A DNA stretch of 64,000 nucleotides, taken from a virus. Of the stretch, positions 5,948 to 64,000 are shown piece by piece (the stretch's first letter is position 1; every line of letters begins with the position of its first letter). Under the pieces are notes generated by a model. The model was not told the origin of the DNA and made no database searches. It was given only the letters and a program-made list of their open reading frames with translations. The stretch covers positions 54,539 to 118,538 of the IMG/VR virus record IMGVR_UViG_3300030060_004050. One strand, given 5' to 3'. The translations under genes were made by a program, and so were the position numbers.

Positions 5948-6343
5948 ATGAATCTATACGAAAAGTACAATCTACTAGAGCAAGGTATGCCCCCACAACT
6001 CGCAGCAATGATGGGTGGAGGTCCGGGAGGTCCGGGAGGTCCGGGAGGTCCACAGGGCCCCCCTCCTAGTATTGCAGATAAACTTTTTGATAGAGTTAGA
6101 GCATACCCAAAAATTGATTTATTCATTCAAAAGTTGCAACAAGCAGGAGTTTCAGACTCTCGTATTCTAGATGAGATCTATGAAAAATTTAAACCAGAGT
6201 TTGTTTATTTTGCTAAAGAAATAATTCAACAGGAAAACAAACCCAAACCACCTGCTGGACCTGGAGGTCCCGGTGGTATGCCTGGTATGCCTGGTATGCC
6301 TCCAATGCCTGCTGGTGAACCCATGGGTGCAGGAGGAGAATAA
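5948..6343 (+). CDS. Gly/Pro-rich small virion protein with targeting-like N-terminus
   Basis: The 131-residue product has three parts. The N-terminal segment MNLYEKYNLLEQ is almost identical to the start of the gene at 11195 and ends in an LLE|Q site that would suit the prohead protease. A central helical domain of about 60 residues contains IADKLFDRVRAYPKIDLF. Two collagen-like Gly-Pro-rich tracts, GGPGGPGGPGGP and a GMPGMPGMPPMP tail, flank that domain. It sits directly before the protease gene. I infer a head-interior or core protein, but no enzymatic motif is visible. Confidence 0.55.
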   Translation: MNLYEKYNLLEQGMPPQLAAMMGGGPGGPGGPGGPQGPPPSIADKLFDRVRAYPKIDLFIQKLQQAGVSDSRILDEIYEKFKPEFVYFAKEIIQQENKPKPPAGPGGPGGMPGMPGMPPMPAGEPMGAGGE

Positions 6344-6347
6344 TCAA

Positions 6348-6992
6348 ATGAAACTAATTACAGAAACAACTGAAGACATTAAACTCATCAAAGAAAATGT
6401 AGAGGGTGGTAATCCAAACTATTACATTAGTGGTGTGTTTATGCAAGCCGAACAAAAGAACCGAAACGGGAGAATCTATCCCAAAGATGTTCTCATGAAC
6501 GAAATTAAAAAGTATAATCAAGACTTTGTTTCGGGAAAGAGAGCATTTGGTGAACTTGGACATCCGGACGGTCCAACCGTAAACCTAGAAAGAGTATCCC
6601 ACCTTATTACAGATTTACATGAAAATGGCGATGATGTGATGGGTAAAGCAAAAATCATGGACACCCCCATGGGTAAGATTGTAAAGAATCTTCTTGATGA
6701 AGGCGCTCAACTTGGAGTTTCCTCCCGAGGAATGGGTAGTTTAGAAGAAAAAGGTGGTAAGAAAATCGTAGGTAAAGATTTTATGCTTGCTGCCGTTGAT
6801 ATTGTCGCAGATCCATCTGCACCAAATGCATTCGTCGATGGAATCATGGAAGGTAAAGAGTGGATTTGGGACAATGGTATGATCAAAGAGTCTACCATTG
6901 CTGGATATAAGAACATAATCAATAAAGCAAGTCAAAGAACAGAAGACGATATCGCAACTTTCTGTTTTGCCGACTTTTTGTCCAAATTATAA
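6348..6992 (+). CDS. gp21: Prohead core protease gp21 (peptidase S77)
   Basis: This 214-residue protein matches T4 gp21 in length and position before scaffold and capsid genes. After an N-terminal propeptide-like stretch come NRNGRIYP, the histidine segment FGELGHPD (His72) and the serine segment LGVSSRGMG (Ser125/126), the expected catalytic residues of the family. In T4-like phages gp21 cleaves scaffold, capsid and internal proteins after [L/I]xE sites during head maturation. I placed the start at ATG 6348 because AGGAGGAGAA lies just upstream and the longer frame would overlap the previous gene. Confidence 0.93.
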   Translation: MKLITETTEDIKLIKENVEGGNPNYYISGVFMQAEQKNRNGRIYPKDVLMNEIKKYNQDFVSGKRAFGELGHPDGPTVNLERVSHLITDLHENGDDVMGKAKIMDTPMGKIVKNLLDEGAQLGVSSRGMGSLEEKGGKKIVGKDFMLAAVDIVADPSAPNAFVDGIMEGKEWIWDNGMIKESTIAGYKNIINKASQRTEDDIATFCFADFLSKL

Positions 6993-8470: not shown

Positions 8471-9958
8471 ATGAGTAATCTCGAAACCGCAGCCCAGTTC
8501 TTGGGTGAGAAATGGAAGCCCATCATTGAGCATCCAAGTCTTCCCGCCATTAAGGACTCATATAGAAAGAACGTCACAACCGTTCTTCTTGAGAACCAAG
8601 AGAAGGCACTTCAAGAGCAGGCTAACAACATTGTAGGTGGCGGTATGTCGCCTGTCGTAGGTAGTGAAGGTGAGATTAAGGGTTTCGATCCTATTCTTAT
8701 CTCGCTCGTTCGTCGTGCTATGCCTAACCTAATGGCATACGATATCTGTGGTGTTCAGCCAATGACTGGACCTACTGGACTTATCTTCGCACTTCGTGCT
8801 AAGTTTGCCACACAGGATGGTACTGAAGCCCTCTTCAACGAACCTGACTTTACCTTCTCCGGTTCTACCAGTGCAACTGGTGGTACTGGTATCACTCACG
8901 GTGCTTCCGGTACTGATGGTGATCCAATTGGTCAAGCAGCATTCCGAGATGGTGCTAGTGCTGATGGTAACGCCAACTCTTACTCCGGTGCTACCGTACA
9001 GGGTGGTCTTTCTACTTCTGTCGGTGAAGTCCTTGGTGCATCTGGTAACTTCGTATTCCCAGAGATGGCATTCAGCATCGAGCGAACCTCGGTTGAAGCC
9101 AAGACTCGCGCCCTCAAGGCAGAGTACACCACTGAACTCGCACAGGACCTCAAGGCTGTTCACGGACTAGACGCTGAGACTGAACTTGCTAACATCCTTA
9201 GCACCGAAGTCCTTGCTGAAATCAACCGTGAAGTCATCCGTACCATCTACCGAATTGCTAAACTTGGTGCCCAGCAGAGTGATCTCTACTTTGGACCAGG
9301 TGGTACTACAACTGCTGGTGCCCTCAAGGCAGCAACTGGTGGTGGTGCAACCGCTATCGCAACTGCTGGACTCGGTGGTATCTACGACCTCGACAAGGAC
9401 TCTGACGGACGTTGGAGTGCTGAGAGATTCCGTGGACTCCAGTTCCAGTTAGAGCGTGAAGCCAACCAGATCGCTAAGGATACTCGTCGTGGTAAGGGTA
9501 ACTTCGTCATCGTCACTGCTGACGTTGCTTCCGCCCTCGCTATGAGTGGTTTCCTTCAGATCTCCGGTGCTGCTGGACTCGAAGGTGAAGTTGATGACAC
9601 TGGTAACACCTTTGTCGGTACTCTCAACGGTAAACTCAAGGTTTACATCGATCCATACTCTGCTGGTACTAACTACGCATGTGTGGGTTACAGAGGTACT
9701 TCACCTTATGACGCTGGACTGTTCTACTGTCCATACGTCCCACTCCAGATGGTTCGCGCCGTTGGTGAGAACGACTTCCAGCCTCGTATCGGGTTCAAGA
9801 CTCGTTACGGAATGGTAATGAACCCATTCGCTGGTGGTACTAACGCCTACGCTGATCTCGAACCTTCGAGCGATGCCGCACTTCGAAAGAACCAGTACTT
9901 CCGTATCTTCCGTATTGACGGACTCCACGGTGGACAGGTAATCTCGCCAGGTATCTGA
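8471..9958 (+). CDS. gp23: Major capsid protein gp23
   Basis: The 495-residue product is the HK97-fold capsid protein of T4-like phages (T4 gp23 is 521). It shows the family start (FLGEKWKPIIEHPSLP), the LVRRAMPNLMAYDICGVQPM segment, the RTSVEAKTRALKAEYT hinge and the C-terminal FKTRYGMVMNPF. The N-terminal about 50-60 residues should be removed by gp21. Codon choice is noticeably more biased than in neighbours (few rare codons), fitting very high expression. AAGGAGAATC before ATG 8471 is a strong ribosome site, and a TTCG hairpin terminator follows. Confidence 0.97.
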   Translation: MSNLETAAQFLGEKWKPIIEHPSLPAIKDSYRKNVTTVLLENQEKALQEQANNIVGGGMSPVVGSEGEIKGFDPILISLVRRAMPNLMAYDICGVQPMTGPTGLIFALRAKFATQDGTEALFNEPDFTFSGSTSATGGTGITHGASGTDGDPIGQAAFRDGASADGNANSYSGATVQGGLSTSVGEVLGASGNFVFPEMAFSIERTSVEAKTRALKAEYTTELAQDLKAVHGLDAETELANILSTEVLAEINREVIRTIYRIAKLGAQQSDLYFGPGGTTTAGALKAATGGGATAIATAGLGGIYDLDKDSDGRWSAERFRGLQFQLEREANQIAKDTRRGKGNFVIVTADVASALAMSGFLQISGAAGLEGEVDDTGNTFVGTLNGKLKVYIDPYSAGTNYACVGYRGTSPYDAGLFYCPYVPLQMVRAVGENDFQPRIGFKTRYGMVMNPFAGGTNAYADLEPSSDAALRKNQYFRIFRIDGLHGGQVISPGI

Positions 9959-12095: not shown

Positions 12096-12524
12096 ATGTC
12101 AGAATTTAAACAGTATCTAAGAGAATCATTACGGTTACACGAAGCAATTGGTATTCCGGGCCCCGGTGTAATAGCACCCATGATCCTACCGCTCATCAAA
12201 CCAGATGGAGGACAGGAGGCAGAACCAGAAGTGCCTCAGAATGATCCACCTGTAGAAGTAATGCCTTGGTGGCAAGATCCAGGCGCAAAAGACGGTAGAC
12301 CACATCTACCGACAGATTTTCCAGAGGACGGAGAAGGAACTTGGGTTATAGGTGAAGGTTTTGGATACTATATGTACACATTCACCATGAATGGTAGAAC
12401 ATATACAATATACTTCGATCCTGTCACACAAACTTGGTCCACATATCCGCCTGGAAGAAAACCTCAATTCGACTTCGATCCTCCACTACAAACATTCCCC
12501 CCAGATCCAACAGATATCGTTTGA
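12096..12524 (+). CDS. Pro-rich virion-associated protein with targeting-like N-terminus
   Basis: The 142-residue product opens with MSEFKQYLRESLRLHEAIG, which resembles the cleavable capsid-targeting sequences of T4 internal proteins and carries LRE and LHE sites for the prohead protease. A Gly/Pro/acidic stretch follows. The end is aromatic, with FGYYMYTFTMNGRTYTIYFD and TWSTYPPGR, comparable to the module at the end of the 10036 protein. It is the last gene of the structural block, before a sigma70-like promoter. Function is unknown; packaging inside the head is an inference. Confidence 0.45.
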   Translation: MSEFKQYLRESLRLHEAIGIPGPGVIAPMILPLIKPDGGQEAEPEVPQNDPPVEVMPWWQDPGAKDGRPHLPTDFPEDGEGTWVIGEGFGYYMYTFTMNGRTYTIYFDPVTQTWSTYPPGRKPQFDFDPPLQTFPPDPTDIV

Positions 12525-53851: not shown

Positions 53852-54451
53852 TCAACCTGTCCAATTTGTTAATAAAATACCAAGATCTTCTGCATCCACG
53901 ATACCGTCTGAGTTGAAGTCTGCTGCTCCATCCATGCCCCATTGAGAGAACAGCATACCTAAGTCCCACCCGTCGATGTCACCATCGTCGTTGAAGTCAC
54001 CCCATACTTGTATCTCCACGGAATAAATCCAGTCCCTTGTGAATGGTATACCGCTTGCAAGAGCCGCATCTGTGTAGAACACAACTTGACCGTCATCAGC
54101 ACACACTTCATAATCTGTATCATGTTGTGTGATTGTGTATTCACCTTTCGGGACGGTAACGTAGTGTCTGTATTTAATGCGTCTTGCTTGAGGGGTTTGA
54201 TTCGTAAACGTGACTGTGCCCTGCGAGTCGAATAGGTTGGTTACAATTATTCGGTTATCAATGTAGTCAACTTCAATTACACGGGTATCGCTTACAACCC
54301 CACCAGTGGTATGCAGATATCCGTTTTCTAGTTCAAGTCTATGCACATCGAAGGAAACCAATGGCGGGGGACAAGAATCTTGTGCTGTGGTGGGGGTTGT
54401 TGTGAAAAAAACAAAGTATAATAAACTAGTTGAGAGTATCCTCTGCTTCAT
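53852..54451 (-). CDS. Secreted protein with tandem dockerin-type repeats
   Basis: The 199-residue protein has a signal peptide (MKQRILSTSLLYFVFFTTTPTTAQ), then a beta-rich domain of about 110 residues (IEVDYIDNRIIVTNLF, GTVTFTNQTP). The C-terminus holds two EF-type loops, DFNDDGDIDGWDLGMLFSQWG and DFNSDGIVDAEDLGILLTNW. Each has Asp/Asn at 1, 3, 5, Gly 6 and Asp 12, with the helix of dockerin half-repeats. Such endings are typical of secreted planctomycete proteins. I use ATG 54451 because it starts the signal peptide. It overlaps the upstream lipoprotein gene. Confidence 0.7.
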   Translation of the reverse strand: MKQRILSTSLLYFVFFTTTPTTAQDSCPPPLVSFDVHRLELENGYLHTTGGVVSDTRVIEVDYIDNRIIVTNLFDSQGTVTFTNQTPQARRIKYRHYVTVPKGEYTITQHDTDYEVCADDGQVVFYTDAALASGIPFTRDWIYSVEIQVWGDFNDDGDIDGWDLGMLFSQWGMDGAADFNSDGIVDAEDLGILLTNWTG

Positions 54452-54686
54452 CTTTCGCTGCTTTCTTGGTGGGTTTAAAAGCCGCATACGTTAAATATAT
54501 AGCACCCAAAAGCAACGGAGAATAAAATAACCAAAAGGCAGTGGAAGAAGTTTTTTCAATTTGAGCGTTATTCTTTACGGTGTGGACTTCAGGAATCGCA
54601 CCATGCTGTTGAGCATTTCCGTCAACTCGCATATAACCACTGCAAGATGTCATGAGTAAACTACAGACTAGAATCAAACTTCTCAT
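54426..54686 (-). CDS. Candidate unimolecular spanin (lipoprotein plus TM)
   Basis: The 86-residue product begins with a lipoprotein signal (MRSLILVCSLLMTSCSG; Cys15 as lipidation site). A short hydrophilic part follows, then a membrane segment (FWLFYSPLLLGAIYLTYAAF) and a charged tail. A lipid anchor in the outer membrane plus a C-terminal inner-membrane helix is the layout of u-spanins such as T1 gp11, which fuse the two membranes at lysis. At 86 residues it is short for that job. It is coupled to the 3-TM gene by an ATGA overlap. Confidence 0.55.
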   Translation of the reverse strand: MRSLILVCSLLMTSCSGYMRVDGNAQQHGAIPEVHTVKNNAQIEKTSSTAFWLFYSPLLLGAIYLTYAAFKPTKKAAKDEAEDTLN

Positions 54687-57137: not shown

Positions 57138-57974
57138 TCAGCCTTCTCGCTGCATCCTACGACGATTCTTTTCTCTTTCCTGTGCAACGTCAATTTCACG
57201 TTCGTGCTTTGTCCTGATTCTTTCGTTTTCAGCACGATGTCTACGCTTTATTCTTTCTACTGGTGAGGCCTGTTCTCCAAAAATACCAAACGGGGCAGTA
57301 AAGGGTAGGTACTCTAGGTAGGGCGTCATGGTAGAGACGCCTCGGATCAGGGTTGGAATTATACTGTTGTCTGGGTTAATTGGACTTACACCACCACCAC
57401 CGATTGGTTTAACTCCTCCGGGAATTATATCTCCGGGTTGTACTGTAGGTCCAAAGATGTGCGGATACATATCTTCTAAAGTATCTGCTGCTATATCTAA
57501 ATTGTTAAGCATCCACGATCTAAGAAGATCTCTAAATATATTTTGCAACGCATTACCCTGTATTCCTAGTAGATCGAGAACTTGTCTCAGGAATGGGAAT
57601 CTGTTAAACAGTGTATTTGGAATATGGGGACGATAGAAAAATCTCATGATTGATAGAAAATTACCAAAATTAAGCACAAAACCAACCGCTGGATATTGCT
57701 GAATAAATACTTGATAAACTCCAAACATGGGATGTGATGCGTTTGCCGCTCCACCGGCAGGGGGTAGCAACCAAGGCGGGAAGTGGTAACCATGGGTGCT
57801 TAAAGATCCGGGATTCACTCCGGGAGGAACGTCTACTTCTGGTCTTTGAATAAGATCTGGAATACCATTACCGTCTTGATCCCAACTCGGATTTCCAGAA
57901 GTGTTGCCCATCATTTGTTCTAGAATCATGTCTGCTCGGTTTAATGATTCTGCTATTTTACTTAGATCTGACAT
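57138..57974 (-). CDS. Virion-associated protein with targeting-like N-terminus and calcium-type motif
   Basis: The 278-residue product begins MSDLSKIAESLNRADMILEQ, which has prohead-protease-type sites (IAE|S, ILE|Q). A WDQDGNGIPDLIQ motif follows, a thrombospondin-type-3-like calcium loop. The middle has hydrophobic stretches (FVLNFGNFLSIMRFF) and a Gly/Pro part (GGVKPIGGGGVSP); the end is strongly basic (RIKRRHRAENERIRTKHERE). It could be a DNA-associated head protein. It overlaps the polyprotein gene by 17 bases. Confidence 0.5.
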   Translation of the reverse strand: MSDLSKIAESLNRADMILEQMMGNTSGNPSWDQDGNGIPDLIQRPEVDVPPGVNPGSLSTHGYHFPPWLLPPAGGAANASHPMFGVYQVFIQQYPAVGFVLNFGNFLSIMRFFYRPHIPNTLFNRFPFLRQVLDLLGIQGNALQNIFRDLLRSWMLNNLDIAADTLEDMYPHIFGPTVQPGDIIPGGVKPIGGGGVSPINPDNSIIPTLIRGVSTMTPYLEYLPFTAPFGIFGEQASPVERIKRRHRAENERIRTKHEREIDVAQEREKNRRRMQREG

Positions 57975-60672
57975 CTTTAAACTTCTTTCTAAATCTTTCG
58001 ACTCCGCAGGCCTGCCCGGGTGTCATGATTTGATGATATTCTCTTGCCTTAGTTGTTCCATCTTCCATTGCTTCATTTTTTCTAGAAAAACTACGATTGG
58101 AACTCTTAGACTTTACCCTTAAATTCTTATCACCATTATTTAGGGGATTTCGATCTTTGTGATCGACATCTTTACCATCACCGAGACGAACTCTACCCTG
58201 TGCCTCTAGTTTTCTTCGTGCTTTATTTCGACTGCTTCTTTTGTCAATTTGATCTTGCTTACCTTGGTAGTTGTCGTACTCTTTTTTGTAGTTTCTGTCT
58301 TCATTTTTAGGAACACAGTTGGGAACCATCTTTCCGCCTTTTTTCTTCATACCTCTTTGAACATGTGTGTCCCAACACTCAGCAAACAATGATTCAAACT
58401 GTTCGTTTTTTTCCTTGGTTTTCTTCTTCATCTGGTTAATGTACTTACGATACACTGCCGCCTCTGATGTCTTACCCATCTCTCTTGCTCTTTGTTCCAT
58501 TGCAACTGCTGCTTGGATTTTGTGAGCGTGGGATCGATCAGAGGACTTGATTTTACTTACAGACGCCTTTGCTGTTTCAACATCTTTAAATCCCAATCCC
58601 TTGATTGTTCCCTTTGGATTTTCGTCTGTATATAAGTCGGAGTGCTTCTTAGAATTTGCAGGTTGTCCCTTCTTACGAGGGATTCTGGGGTTGTCTTCTT
58701 CTTTGAGTGTTGCTCTGTTTGTCTTACTGCTATATTTGTAATTACCTTTTGACTTACCAGAGTACTTCGCCGCACGATCTTTTGCACGATCCTCGGCGCT
58801 CATTGAGTTTCTTTTCTTACCCTTGTCGGTTAGTTCCTGCGATCCTTTTTTGAGGATTCCTCTTTTCTGAAGAGACGCAGTGGCGATAGCATAGGTCTTG
58901 GATTTAGACCAAGATGGGTTTTTATCTTTGAGTTGATTAACAAGTCTGTCTAGAATATCAGGTTCTGTTAGTAAACGACTCTCCACAACGGTAGGTCTTG
59001 GGCCTCCGCCTCCACCGGGAACCGTGTGAATCGGACCGGGACTGTATGGAACTTCATGAGGATTGTCGATATCGTCAGGACCAGGGATCCTTGGATCGCT
59101 TGGATAAAATGGTTTCTCGCCCCATCCACCAGGCTGACGTTTACCAACTATTGGACCAAAAGGTCTTTTCCAAGATGGAATTAGTCTTACGGGAATCGGT
59201 TGCGAGTGCATCCCACCCGGTCCTTTAAAAACAACCATCCATTCACCAGTGTTTGGATTAAAATAGTAATACCAACCAAACTGAGGTATACCGGGATTAC
59301 CAGAGGTAGGATCGGTTGGATTAAATGGTGAAGGTTGGAAGTATCCTCCCGGACCTGGACCGTCGGACGGTAAGAATTGTTCCTTTACATTTCCACGAAG
59401 TTTAGCGATTCTTTCTCGTTCTTGGGTTCGAATTCCCGGAAGAAGTTTTTGTGCTACCTTTGCAATTCTTGCAGGAGAATACTTCTTCTTTAGTCTCTTC
59501 TCGATTGCCTCTTTTTCAGCAAAACCCAAAGACTGCCAACTTCGGTTCTTAAGCATCTTCTTCTTGAACCCAGTAATAGCAGCCTTTCGTGCCTTCTTCT
59601 TTAAATCCTCAGCACCCTTCATCTTTCGTGCTTTGATTTTTCTACGCATTGATCGACGCTTTGAAGTTCTTCTGGCTGCTCTTGCCATTTTTCTTCTTGC
59701 TTCTTTTGAGAGTTCGTCAAGTTGAGTGGATTCGTTTATCTCTTGGTTTAAACCAATGTTGTCGCCAACATTACCACTGAATGTTCCTGCATTTACTTCG
59801 AGGACATACTTGGCAGGTTTATTTGGCATTCGTGTATTTAGATCATGCGGTTGAAGAGTGGCAATATCAACAATTGTGCCTTCTTCGTTGATCCAAACAA
59901 CGTCGAGAGGAATGTAAGTATTCTTCATCCAGATACCATGGTGATCCTCTTCGTCGAATACGAAAAGCATACCATCTTCATTGTCCATGGACTTTACATC
60001 CATGAGTCCCTTTTCTCTGGTTTCGTCGGTATCTGCTAGTCTAACATTGAATGTCTGCTCACCAAACGAAGCGTATTCTTCTTTCAGTCCCATTCCTTTT
60101 CGGATGGACTTAAAGAGACGAAGTGCAACTCTCTTGTTTACCTTTGCGGGAACACCCTTTATGAATTTTTCAAACTCGTCGTCTACTGCTGCCTTTCTCA
60201 TTTTCGATCCAGACATACCAACGACACCCTCTGCATCAGGATCTCGTTCACCAGCAGACAAGACTTCAAAAACTTCTAAGTCCTTGGTGTATGGTTTCAT
60301 TCTCTTGGTAAATTCGCCTACACGATCACCACCAACCACCATGTATACTTTGGTGTATCCCTCTTTGTATAAAGAGTCTAGTACTTGAAATGGAGTTTTT
60401 GCCGATCTGTCATCGACAATATTGGCTCCTGAAAACATCTTTCGCATAAATAGTACTTTATCCTTGTGCGAAAGAGGATTTTGCTTTTTGTCTTGCGAGT
60501 GGCTGGGATAGATCCTATGTTCCGCTCCTCGCTTTTTTGCTTCTCTTATAACTGTGTTGATGAGAAGTTGGTGCCCCGATGTGGGAGGCTGAAACCTTCC
60601 GAAAGTAAACACCACAGACTTACCTTCAGTCTGTTCCCGAATGTTTGCTTGTATTTCTCGGTATGATTTCAT
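57958..60672 (-). CDS. NMNAT-like / DUF192 / HNH multidomain protein, probably head-packaged
   Basis: The 904-residue protein starts MKSYREIQANIREQ, resembling a T4 capsid-targeting sequence with an IRE|Q site. Domain 1 (about 18-200) is a nucleotidyltransferase: VFTFGRFQPPTSGH (NadM-type GRFQPxxxGH) and GMSGSKMRKA. Domain 2 (about 207-309) is DUF192: GLMDVKSM, GMLFVF, IWMKNTYIPLDVVW. A very basic helical region (about 320-435), a Gly/Pro/Tyr region with GWYYYFNPNTGEWM, and basic repeats follow. The C-terminus has an HNH-type DVDHKDRNPLNNGDKNLR. Internal LKE, LDE and LTE sites suggest processing into pieces. The upstream GTG 60699 was rejected. Confidence 0.75.
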   Translation of the reverse strand: MKSYREIQANIREQTEGKSVVFTFGRFQPPTSGHQLLINTVIREAKKRGAEHRIYPSHSQDKKQNPLSHKDKVLFMRKMFSGANIVDDRSAKTPFQVLDSLYKEGYTKVYMVVGGDRVGEFTKRMKPYTKDLEVFEVLSAGERDPDAEGVVGMSGSKMRKAAVDDEFEKFIKGVPAKVNKRVALRLFKSIRKGMGLKEEYASFGEQTFNVRLADTDETREKGLMDVKSMDNEDGMLFVFDEEDHHGIWMKNTYIPLDVVWINEEGTIVDIATLQPHDLNTRMPNKPAKYVLEVNAGTFSGNVGDNIGLNQEINESTQLDELSKEARRKMARAARRTSKRRSMRRKIKARKMKGAEDLKKKARKAAITGFKKKMLKNRSWQSLGFAEKEAIEKRLKKKYSPARIAKVAQKLLPGIRTQERERIAKLRGNVKEQFLPSDGPGPGGYFQPSPFNPTDPTSGNPGIPQFGWYYYFNPNTGEWMVVFKGPGGMHSQPIPVRLIPSWKRPFGPIVGKRQPGGWGEKPFYPSDPRIPGPDDIDNPHEVPYSPGPIHTVPGGGGGPRPTVVESRLLTEPDILDRLVNQLKDKNPSWSKSKTYAIATASLQKRGILKKGSQELTDKGKKRNSMSAEDRAKDRAAKYSGKSKGNYKYSSKTNRATLKEEDNPRIPRKKGQPANSKKHSDLYTDENPKGTIKGLGFKDVETAKASVSKIKSSDRSHAHKIQAAVAMEQRAREMGKTSEAAVYRKYINQMKKKTKEKNEQFESLFAECWDTHVQRGMKKKGGKMVPNCVPKNEDRNYKKEYDNYQGKQDQIDKRSSRNKARRKLEAQGRVRLGDGKDVDHKDRNPLNNGDKNLRVKSKSSNRSFSRKNEAMEDGTTKAREYHQIMTPGQACGVERFRKKFKDVRSK

Positions 60673-60770: not shown

Positions 60771-60896
60771 TCAGTCTTTGTTCCACGGGAAGAACTTTCG
60801 AGTCCACTCCCATGCCGGACGACCGATAAGTGCGCCTGCTACAAAAACAATAATAGTGTGTGCTACTAAGCCGTAAGTTGTTGTTAAAAATTCCAT
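60771..60896 (-). CDS. Small membrane protein of 41 residues
   Basis: MEFLTTTYGLVAHTIIVFV is followed by AGALIGRPAWEWTRKFFPWNKD: one membrane helix of about 20 residues and a basic, Trp-rich end. ATG 60896 has AAAGGAG nine bases upstream and a late-type box at 60935-60942, so it looks like a real, late-expressed gene despite its size. It may be a holin-like or virion membrane peptide. No family is recognised. About 98 bases between this stop and the polyprotein start hold only a weak GGTAA/TTACC hairpin. Confidence 0.6.
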   Translation of the reverse strand: MEFLTTTYGLVAHTIIVFVAGALIGRPAWEWTRKFFPWNKD

Positions 60897-61789: not shown

Positions 61790-62995
61790 TCAACCTTTTA
61801 CCCAGTTTTTTGCAGCAGTAAAGTTTTGTCTTGAAAATTCAAGTCTATCGACGAGTTTAAGTGCTTTTGTGCCATATCTGTCGATTGCGACGTATCCTTC
61901 GGGTGCGGTTACGTCAAAACCGTCTCCGCTTCTGATGAAAGTACCGATTGATTTGATTTTTTCGAACTTTCGAACCAAAACAATCTTCGCTTCACCCAAA
62001 AGTGCATGGAGTTTGAACGCCTGATCAATTTTTGCTCCATTTTGTGCGATGAAAGACATGATTTTGTCTTTTTGCTCTTGCTTTCGCTTCTTACCACTCT
62101 CTGATTTCAATTTATCCACCTGAGATTGTAGTTTTTTGTCCATGTAAGCGGCGAAACCCTTTATGTTTCCGGTAGAAACGCCCTGACGAACGTTTGCATT
62201 GATATAAATCTTGATTTCATCGATGATCGACTTGTTTTTAATAAATTTGGTAAGGAAACTTCGGTTTTTGGACAGCAAAGCGTTGATGTTTTTGATAAGT
62301 TTATCGATTTTTGCAACCTCCTTGTTAGTGAGTGTTGCGTTGCCTGAAACATCTTTCAAATATGCATCATCAAACCACACATCGGATGTCTTTTTGAACC
62401 CACTAACGTTAACACCGAACGATGCACTTAGATCTGCGATGCTTTTACCACTATATTTCGTGTGAAAAACGATACCAATCCTTGCTCTCTCTATTCGTTT
62501 TGCAAGATCGGAGTCTTTAGGTACGGCATATGTGATAGTATTGGGTGTAAACGTAATGTGTGGTTCACCATTGATCGACTCTGTACCCAAATCGTCGTTC
62601 ATAAACATCATATCACCTTGGATAATACCATCGAACCCAAGTTTGGGTAGGTGATTAAGTGCAACATGGAGACGATCTGCTAATCCACCGGAGTGGTTTG
62701 CACGAATGTCATCGTGGGTGTAGTTAATTTTAGGTGTCTTGTTAAACAGACTCTTTGTAGCAACAAAGAATTTACCGTTTTCGGGATCCTTACCACAAAA
62801 TATAGCAGGCGCACCGTCCCATTTTACAGTGATATCAACTCCGCTCTTTGAATTTCCGCGAAGCATGTCTACCACGGAGTTCAAAAAGTTCACTGCATTA
62901 GAAACGCCTTTTGCGCCTTCGTTAAAAACAGAATCTTCAATGTGTTCCATATGAAGATTCTTGGATTCCTTCAAATATGTAAGGAAGTTTTTCAT
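61790..62995 (-). CDS. DUF6267-type protein with ligase-like nucleotidyltransferase motifs
   Basis: The 401-residue protein starts MKNFLTYLKESKNLHMEH, a targeting-like segment with LKE|S. It carries covalent nucleotidyltransferase-type motifs: VKWDGAPAIF with candidate lysine 58 (motif I KxDG), FDGIIQGDMMF, and a late PEGYVAIDRYGTKALKLV resembling motifs IV and V of DNA/RNA ligases. A long basic helical insertion sits between them. It may be an RNA/DNA ligase or capping-type enzyme carried in the head. ATG 62995 overlaps the upstream stop; the GTG frame start at 63025 lies inside that gene. Confidence 0.65.
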   Translation of the reverse strand: MKNFLTYLKESKNLHMEHIEDSVFNEGAKGVSNAVNFLNSVVDMLRGNSKSGVDITVKWDGAPAIFCGKDPENGKFFVATKSLFNKTPKINYTHDDIRANHSGGLADRLHVALNHLPKLGFDGIIQGDMMFMNDDLGTESINGEPHITFTPNTITYAVPKDSDLAKRIERARIGIVFHTKYSGKSIADLSASFGVNVSGFKKTSDVWFDDAYLKDVSGNATLTNKEVAKIDKLIKNINALLSKNRSFLTKFIKNKSIIDEIKIYINANVRQGVSTGNIKGFAAYMDKKLQSQVDKLKSESGKKRKQEQKDKIMSFIAQNGAKIDQAFKLHALLGEAKIVLVRKFEKIKSIGTFIRSGDGFDVTAPEGYVAIDRYGTKALKLVDRLEFSRQNFTAAKNWVKG

Positions 62996-63930
62996 CAGTC
63001 CTCCACTTTGGAACCGGCTCTCCACTGCTTACACGACCAGTATCGTGCTTTAGTCTTGGGTCCGGGGTTGTCACAATTATGTCTAGCACGGAAGTTCTTT
63101 CTTCGTTCCGGATCGTCTCGCTTGATCTCCATGTTGGGATCACCGAAACGAACAGTCTTTATATTTCCTGTGCTTGGATCTTTTACATAAACCTTAAACT
63201 TTTTATTCCCACCAGAGTCTCTCATGATTTTGTTGAGAGGACCCTTTTTCTTCTTCTCTTCTTCGAAGATGGGACTGGTGTAAGATTCAGGAAGACGCTT
63301 TCCCTTTGTCGGGGCAGTTGTTCCTATATCTAGTTTCTTAGCACGAATGTCATTTACTTTTGGTGCCTCGGGAACTTCTAGATCAGGTGGTGCAAATTGA
63401 TTGTTCCACTCATAAGCCCACAAAGGCCATATTCCTGACTGCCAAATTTGAGTCATTAAAGTATGATCCTCTTGAGTAAGCACACCATCTCCATTGAAAT
63501 CGTAATAGTAAACATAGTCTGGGGCATATACCCCGGAATCAATAAAACCTTGCAATTGATTCAATCCTCCCTGCCACGATTGATTCGCCTCAAGTCGTAG
63601 TGGGTGTTGAGAATCCATGGGGAGAAGATAAAGGTGATCTTTCCACCAAGATTCGAGATTGACATTCTGTGGTGGTGGATTCGGAACGCCTTGTGACCAT
63701 AACGAAAGAATAAGAGTTAAATCGTTGAATGTAATTTCACCATCACCGTCCCAATCATGTCTGGCGATAGTGAGGGACGAAGGATTTGTGTGTGTCATTA
63801 GTGCTTGAATGACCTGTACTCTATCCCACCACATATGATCACTTGTTCCTTCTGGATAAGGATTCGTTGGAGTCTGCTGTTCGTTTAGGTTAACAGACTC
63901 TTGAAGATAGTTTTGAAAACGAGTACTCAT
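62995..63930 (-). CDS. Virion-associated protein with two dockerin-type loops
   Basis: The 311-residue product begins MSTRFQNYLQESVNLNEQQ, a targeting-like segment with LQE|S and LNE|Q sites. It contains two calcium-type loops, DWDGDGEITFNDLTLILSLW and DFNGDGVLTQEDHTLMTQIW, separated by about 80 residues, each followed by a dockerin-like helix. The C-terminus is a conserved basic domain (KFKVYVKDPSTGNIKTVRFGD, then RARHNCDNPGPKTKARYWSCKQW) seen in marine phage proteins. Head association is inferred. AAAAGGAGAA precedes ATG 63930. Confidence 0.6.
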   Translation of the reverse strand: MSTRFQNYLQESVNLNEQQTPTNPYPEGTSDHMWWDRVQVIQALMTHTNPSSLTIARHDWDGDGEITFNDLTLILSLWSQGVPNPPPQNVNLESWWKDHLYLLPMDSQHPLRLEANQSWQGGLNQLQGFIDSGVYAPDYVYYYDFNGDGVLTQEDHTLMTQIWQSGIWPLWAYEWNNQFAPPDLEVPEAPKVNDIRAKKLDIGTTAPTKGKRLPESYTSPIFEEEKKKKGPLNKIMRDSGGNKKFKVYVKDPSTGNIKTVRFGDPNMEIKRDDPERRKNFRARHNCDNPGPKTKARYWSCKQWRAGSKVED

Positions 63931-64000
63931 TTCTCCTTTTCCTTTCTCCAAGTACCACCCTTACTCTTGTAGTCCTTGGATGCCCATGCGTTTGCATATG
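63927..64000 (-). CDS. C-terminal fragment of a further minus-strand gene
   Basis: The frame enters from the right edge and ends at TGA (63927-63929), overlapping the next ATG as ATGA. It reads YANAWASKDYKSKGGTWRK and a short basic tail. Coupling and the basic, aromatic character suggest another member of the head-associated block. Too little is visible to name it. Confidence 0.5.
   Translation of the reverse strand, partial: YANAWASKDYKSKGGTWRKEKEK

Follow-up and report, generated by a model that had tools for sequence, protein, structure and literature searches.

An NMNAT-headed open reading frame of a marine T4-like phage as a putative effector polyprotein cut by the prohead protease

In this study we analysed a window of 64,000 nucleotides (64 kb) from a 118,538-base virus record (IMG/VR, IMGVR_UViG_3300030060_004050), which may be incomplete or a fragment, and focused on a minus-strand open reading frame (ORF, 57958-60672) headed by an NMNAT-like domain. 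With a probability of about 0.6, the product of this ORF is a precursor from which a marine T4-like phage makes internal head proteins, namely an effector polyprotein that is led by a capsid-targeting sequence and cut by the prohead protease. Under this proposal, the N-terminal targeting sequence would carry the 904-residue precursor into the prohead core, where a gp21-type protease, by cutting after [LIV]xE, would take off the targeting sequence and release the cassettes as an NMNAT-like enzyme, DUF192, a basic protein, small cassettes and an HNH-like domain. These pieces would stay alongside the DNA inside the head until infection, when they would pass into the cell. Before phage gene expression, the adenylyltransferase would then transfer AMP onto a substrate of the nucleotide type, NMN or NaMN being the likeliest, and yield NAD(+) or NaAD, the basic piece would probably bind DNA or neutralise its charge, and the HNH-like piece would probably nick or cut nucleic acid. 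Cleavage, packaging, delivery and substrate are what we infer here from domains, folds, motifs, a protease gene and an exchange of cassettes that were found computationally.

The original prediction had named three domains in this protein, NMNAT-like, DUF192 and HNH, and Pfam and PHROG matches, structure models and conserved motifs bear out all of them; it did not include the T4-type capsid-targeting start, the basic helical domain (residues 330-437) or the further cassettes described below. The ORF spans 904 residues from the ATG at 60672, with an in-frame GTG nine codons upstream (60699) offering a 913-residue alternative. Since the match to a relative that is 75% identical (L118) begins at MKTY and is conserved from MKTYK onwards, with divergent residues before it, the ATG is the likelier start; residue numbers nevertheless follow the 913-residue frame. 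A structure model of the full 904 residues (mean pLDDT 60.9) consists of folded islands amid disordered linkers.

Targeting start and predicted cleavage sites

Comparison with L118 and with T4 ipI, ipII and ipIII identified a T4-type capsid-targeting start, MKSYREIQANIRE/Q (60634..60672, minus strand like all parts of the ORF; the slash marks the predicted cut). The counterpart in L118 is MKTYKYFLKENIFE/Q (MKTYKYFLKE), the T4 starts (NC_000866) are MKTYQEFIAE/A in ipII and ipIII and MKTFKEF...TITE/A in ipI, and common starts of other homologues are MKKFSAFLNE, MKSFTEYLSE and MKTYQRFMTE. A strict form of the targeting pattern occurred in 21 of 51 NMNAT ORFs and 25 of 56 ORFs of the DUF6267 family, compared with 28 of 476 other ORFs of the same loci, and several of these 28 look like genuine targeting starts. 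L118 fits the strict form; the window protein fits only a loose one, so that the short N-terminal targeting sequence with [LI]xE that marks T4-type internal proteins is present in it, through MKSYREIQANIRE/Q, as a loose fit. The same phage encodes a gp21-type prohead protease (6273..6992, plus strand; Peptidase_S77, E=1.4e-38) and a gp23-type major capsid protein (8471..9958, plus strand) with LxE sites near its start (ALQE/QANN).

The ORF contains eight [L/I]xE sites, six at the start or in linkers, as the original prediction had noted for the linkers, and two within folded domains (an NMNAT helix and DUF192). Immediately behind the NMNAT domain comes a predicted cleavage site, LKE/ (60079..60087). 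Among 92 homologues, 95% have L, V or I in this column and 82% have E two residues later, while the sequence beyond diverges. Predicted sites INE/ and LDE/ follow DUF192 (59713..59739), where L118 has an additional cassette of 57 residues. Close relatives (L002-L004, 85-88% identical, and L118) differ from the window protein by entire cassettes, with eight breakpoints among them, and those at 322, 442, 574 and 667 lie within 3 residues of [LIV]xE, as do about 10% of positions in the background (p=0.0025 by script with 4/7; about 0.005 by hand with 4/8). An [LIV]xE was also expected before the HNH cassette and turned out to be rare among relatives, because most HNH relatives are stand-alone genes.

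Packaging and the weighing of alternatives

Homologues of the NMNAT-like protein have been found in cyanophage virions. SSM1_190 of S-SM1 is annotated as T4-GC190, which purified virions of this phage were found to contain (PMC3037559), and NMNAT-like or cytidylyltransferase proteins were reported from virions of S-SZBM1 (S-SZBM1_140, PMC9146016), S-SCSM1 (ORF91, PMC9602691) and S-CREM2 (ORF154, PMC10665884), with S-CBWM1 cited as a further case. Together with the targeting start, the gp21-type protease and the [LIV]xE that is kept behind the NMNAT domain, these detections agree with the earlier proposal that the protein is probably processed and packaged. A host NAD role has already been suggested for the virion protein (S-SCSM1, PMC9602691; S-CREM2, PMC10665884). 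The idea of a packaged NMNAT and the NAD speculation are therefore not new, and the proposed cut-and-swap design of the cassettes is. Accordingly, of the previous remark that the domain set was unfamiliar, the part concerning packaged NMNAT-like proteins and NAD falls to published cyanophage work, and the part concerning the DUF192 and HNH combination stands: it is rare, with DUF192 in 7 of 50,697 phage records and in none of these seen fused to NMNAT. The use of a packaged NMNAT-like enzyme against NAD-depleting defence is speculative.

Several points weigh against the polyprotein proposal. Half of the breakpoints (624, 760, 800 and 877; 4/8) do not lie near [LIV]xE; the density of [LI]xE outside known domains is raised 2.0-fold, a modest and not decisive excess given 1.65-fold for the control [LI]..E; and the published virion detections of homologues show no internal cuts (PMC3037559, PMC9146016, PMC9602691, PMC10665884). 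Packaging of the window protein is well supported by way of its homologues, the phage itself being known from a metagenomic record alone, and the authors of the S-CREM2 (PMC10665884) and S-SCSM1 (PMC9602691) proteomes warned of carry-over or contamination.

These points touch two other explanations. In the first, which we regard as rather unlikely, the protein is packaged and only its targeting sequence is removed, and what is left passes into the host in one piece, as a polyvalent protein of several domains. T4 internal proteins lose only an N-terminal propeptide. The same is true of most SPN3US head substrates (PMC10052503), polyvalent proteins are large and multidomain (PMC5512222), and the breakpoints away from [LIV]xE point the same way; however, [LIV]xE is conserved right after the NMNAT domain in 92 divergent homologues with differing downstream cassettes, and cassettes are also encoded by genes of their own, with a separate targeting start. 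The second, in which the protein is an ordinary metabolic fusion enzyme, expressed late and left unpackaged, would make the virion detections carry-over and the [L/I]xE sites chance. While the cautions in the two proteome papers (PMC10665884, PMC9602691) and the commonness of [L/I]xE as a tripeptide speak for it, the homologue detections in four or more independent proteomes of cyanophages, the targeting-like starts and the conserved site after the domain make it improbable.

The NMNAT-like head domain

Pfam, PHROG, AlphaFold and Foldseek place an NMNAT/NaMNAT-type adenylyltransferase domain at residues 26-207 (60079..60624), with the motifs GRFQPPTSGH (60571..60600) and SGSKMR (60196..60213). 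The region matched the PHROG family cytidyltransferase at E=7e-55, and Pfam CTP_transf_like at residues 32-134 gave E=4.7e-4, 0.2 bits below the cut-off. An AlphaFold model built on an 84-sequence alignment reached pLDDT 88.7 and pTM 0.82, and its top Foldseek matches in the PDB were NadD and NadM (E ~5e-6 to 1e-4); PPAT, FAD synthetase and TmcAL came next (E 5e-5 to 5e-4). Searching the PDB with a profile of the region returned the NMNAT of M. jannaschii as the best match (1f9a, E=7.5e-4), and also NadD, NadR and NadM. The domain alone gave no significant phmmer match in the PDB, whereas matches did come from the profile built on 84 sequences and from comparing folds. Across 92 distinct homologues G34, R35, F36, P38, H43, P75, G123, S163, R168 and G182 are invariant, and the residues of GRFxP..H and S-x-S-K-x-R are mostly 91-100% conserved. 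The signatures (H/T)xGH and S-x-(S/T)-x-x-R appear as T40-x-G42-H43 and S163-x-S165-K-x-R168 within a Rossmann-like fold whose model matches NadD and NadM. The earlier assignment to an NMN/pantetheine-type adenylyltransferase thus finds agreement in the structure prediction, which upheld the fold rather than rejecting it, and we consider the predicted NMNAT/NaMNAT-type fold settled and the substrate not.

The substrate predicted from the model is ambiguous, which tells against the NAD step of the proposal. A CTP-, FMN-, pantetheine- or tRNA-related substrate, with the fold right and the NAD reading wrong, is a substantial possibility, although we think it somewhat less probable than NMN or NaMN. 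Database names say cytidyltransferase, Foldseek also matches PPAT, FAD synthetase and TmcAL, identity to solved enzymes is just 9-18%, and no NAMPT/NadV gene (PF04095) was found in the 118.5 kb record, itself possibly incomplete. On the other hand, NMN/NaMN enzymes are the best matches both by profile and by structure. A dedicated NadV plus NMNAT pair for NAD reconstitution (NARP2-like) was considered and is not supported, PF04095 being absent from that record.

DUF192, HNH-like and other cassettes

Behind the head domain lies DUF192 (PF02643, COG1430) at residues 217-308 (59776..60051), a call confirmed by Pfam (E=1.4e-27; 96.1 bits against a cut-off of 27) and by Foldseek matches to 3pjy and 3m7a at E~1e-7 (38% and 32% identity). 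In S-SM2_109 and Bellamy123 this domain is bordered by VKE and IEE. A basic helical cassette follows (residues 330-437, 59389..59712), which in the phage Melnitz is a separate gene with its own targeting start, MKKFSELTSELIE/RKAV, and is likewise separate, with such a start, in several other loci; DUF192 (L119) and HNH also occur as stand-alone genes. The next, a Pro/Gly-rich cassette (residues 443-574, 58978..59373), is missing in all four close relatives and has no relative elsewhere within the window, and its joints lie 1-2 residues away from VKE and VVE.

Three small cassettes precede the HNH-like one: cassette A of the KTYAIATASLQK type (residues 580-665, 58705..58962); cassette B of the HSDLYTDENPKGT type (residues 668-770, 58390..58698), which is found in many unrelated large phage ORFs, begins S-SM2_109 and Bellamy gp123 and is missing in L002 and L004; and a short cassette, CWDTHVQRGMKKKGGKMVPNC (CWDTHVQRGMKKKGGK) (residues 775-800, 58300..58377), whose type recurs in Melnitz18, S-SM2_109 and Bellamy123.

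The HNH-like cassette (RNYKKEYDNY...GDGKDVDHKDRNPLNN; residues 801-880, 58060..58299) scored just under the Pfam cut-off for HNH_3 at 841-868 (E=5.5e-5; 23.2 bits, cut-off 24.8) and matched phrog_4578, HNH endonuclease, at E=9e-5, while HNH_3 exceeded the cut-off in the NMNAT-headed relatives L053 and L065. Its family, a large one of small phage proteins, carries GDGxDVDHKxxNPxNN and is also widespread as stand-alone proteins of about 75-120 residues. Of 38 distinct relatives nearly all preserve DVDHKxxNPxNN, and one has K for the last N.

The wider family

The NMNAT domain was found in 535 of 50,697 phage records, chiefly of cyanophages and also of jumbo phages; its fusion with DUF192 was observed nowhere but in the window, L002-L004 and L118. 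Other marine contigs join the NMNAT head to different domains: RimK ATP-grasp and Zn_protease in L037, L039, L042 and L062, RimK with no Zn_protease detected in L059, SET and HNH in L040 and L053 (ORFs of 1317 and at least 1875 residues), a zeta toxin-type kinase in L007 and L016, PolyA_pol parts in L018 and one other, and DUF5824 in 15 of 40. The RimK-type ATP-grasp beside a RimB-like Zn_protease in the first four might form a packaged pair modifying ribosomal proteins. A literature search on 'cytitidyltransferase', DUF6267 and RimK with zeta toxin returned nothing useful.

It is about an even bet that the prohead protease serves as a polyprotein processor in marine T4-like phages generally, with a string of independent effector enzymes behind one targeting sequence, punctuated by [LIV]xE, cut in the head and co-injected, and with cassettes (NMNAT, DUF192, HNH, RimK with Zn-protease, SET, kinases, PAP) swapped between cut sites. 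If so, hundreds of ocean phages would bring ready-made mix-and-match enzymes into the cell before gene expression, the [LIV]xE rule would allow cassette borders to be deduced from sequence, and many 'hypothetical' ORFs of marine phages would become lists of predicted injected effectors. The polyprotein model would also open to direct test the purpose of the NMNAT-like core protein that T4-like cyanophages carry in their virions.

Neighbouring genes

Upstream lies a partner gene of the DUF6267 family (61790..62995, minus strand; start MKNFLTYLKE/S), and DUF6267 is present in the fetched flank of 72 of 104 NMNAT loci. Its invariant KWDGAPA-type motif, with (P)EGFV and KLVDR, recalls covalent nucleotidyltransferases and ligases, and an invariant HxxHxED stands near the start. 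A ligase assignment was unsupported by a profile search of the PDB and by hhalign against T4 RnlB and gp30. No DNA ligase, NAD-dependent (PF01653) or ATP-dependent (PF01068), was found in the possibly incomplete 118.5 kb record. Between the DUF6267 gene and the NMNAT-headed ORF, two genes with head-protein-like starts, sits an unannotated ORF of 41 residues (60771-60896, minus strand) with a good Shine-Dalgarno sequence (AAAGGAGATT) and one hydrophobic segment.

A gene with a targeting-like start, MSTRFQNYLQE/S (62995..63930, also given as 62995-63951, minus strand), encodes dockerin/EF-hand-like DxDGDG repeats, as does a second gene of the window (53852-54487, minus strand). Downstream of the NMNAT-headed ORF, a Pro/Gly-rich protein of 278 residues (57138..57974, minus strand) has a basic C-terminal tail like the one that L118 carries as a fusion to the ORF. 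Another targeting-like start, MSEFKQYLRES, was found close to the capsid genes (12096-12524, plus strand).

Comparison with known systems

The nearest known system is T4-GC190 of the T4-like cyanophages S-SM1, S-SZBM1, S-SCSM1 and S-CREM2, which shares the NMNAT-like domain (about 47-50% identity by tblastn in S-SM1 and kin) and is found in virions; in S-SM1 it likewise has a targeting start (MKKFSAFLNE/AE) and a DUF6267-type gene directly upstream. Unlike the window protein, the cyanophage proteins are mostly of about 385-450 residues, without DUF192, the basic cassette or HNH in the ORF. In Methylophilales phage Melnitz, genes 16-18 encode DUF6267, a basic protein and NMNAT, all with targeting-like starts, as in the window family, but the basic protein is a separate gene and no DUF192 or HNH was seen in the NMNAT ORF.

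T4 IPI-IPIII and Alt share the N-terminal targeting start with an LxE or IxE site. The T4 internal proteins are cut by gp21 at LxE/IxE with loss of the propeptide only, and each precursor holds one functional unit, whereas many cassettes follow one targeting start in the window protein. In SPN3US, the prohead protease cuts several head proteins after AXE, with propeptide removals reported (PMC10052503); such SPN3US/phiKZ-type ejection proteins resemble the window protein in a short protease motif ending in E and differ in that their cuts remove propeptides and use A-x-E rather than [LIV]-x-E.

Polyvalent proteins, which have been likened to polyproteins, are phage proteins of large size with several swappable enzyme domains; their injection is predicted, and embedded peptidase domains are proposed to bring about release (PMC5512222). 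A text search of that paper found no mention of DUF192 or cyanophages. The window family resembles them in carrying several unrelated effector domains per polypeptide in variable composition, but Pfam detected no peptidase or signature polyvalent domain in the window ORF, where the prohead protease would cut instead. By analogy with these systems, the ORF is best read as a T4-type internal protein by its address and cut site that is polyvalent-like in content, with no embedded peptidase.

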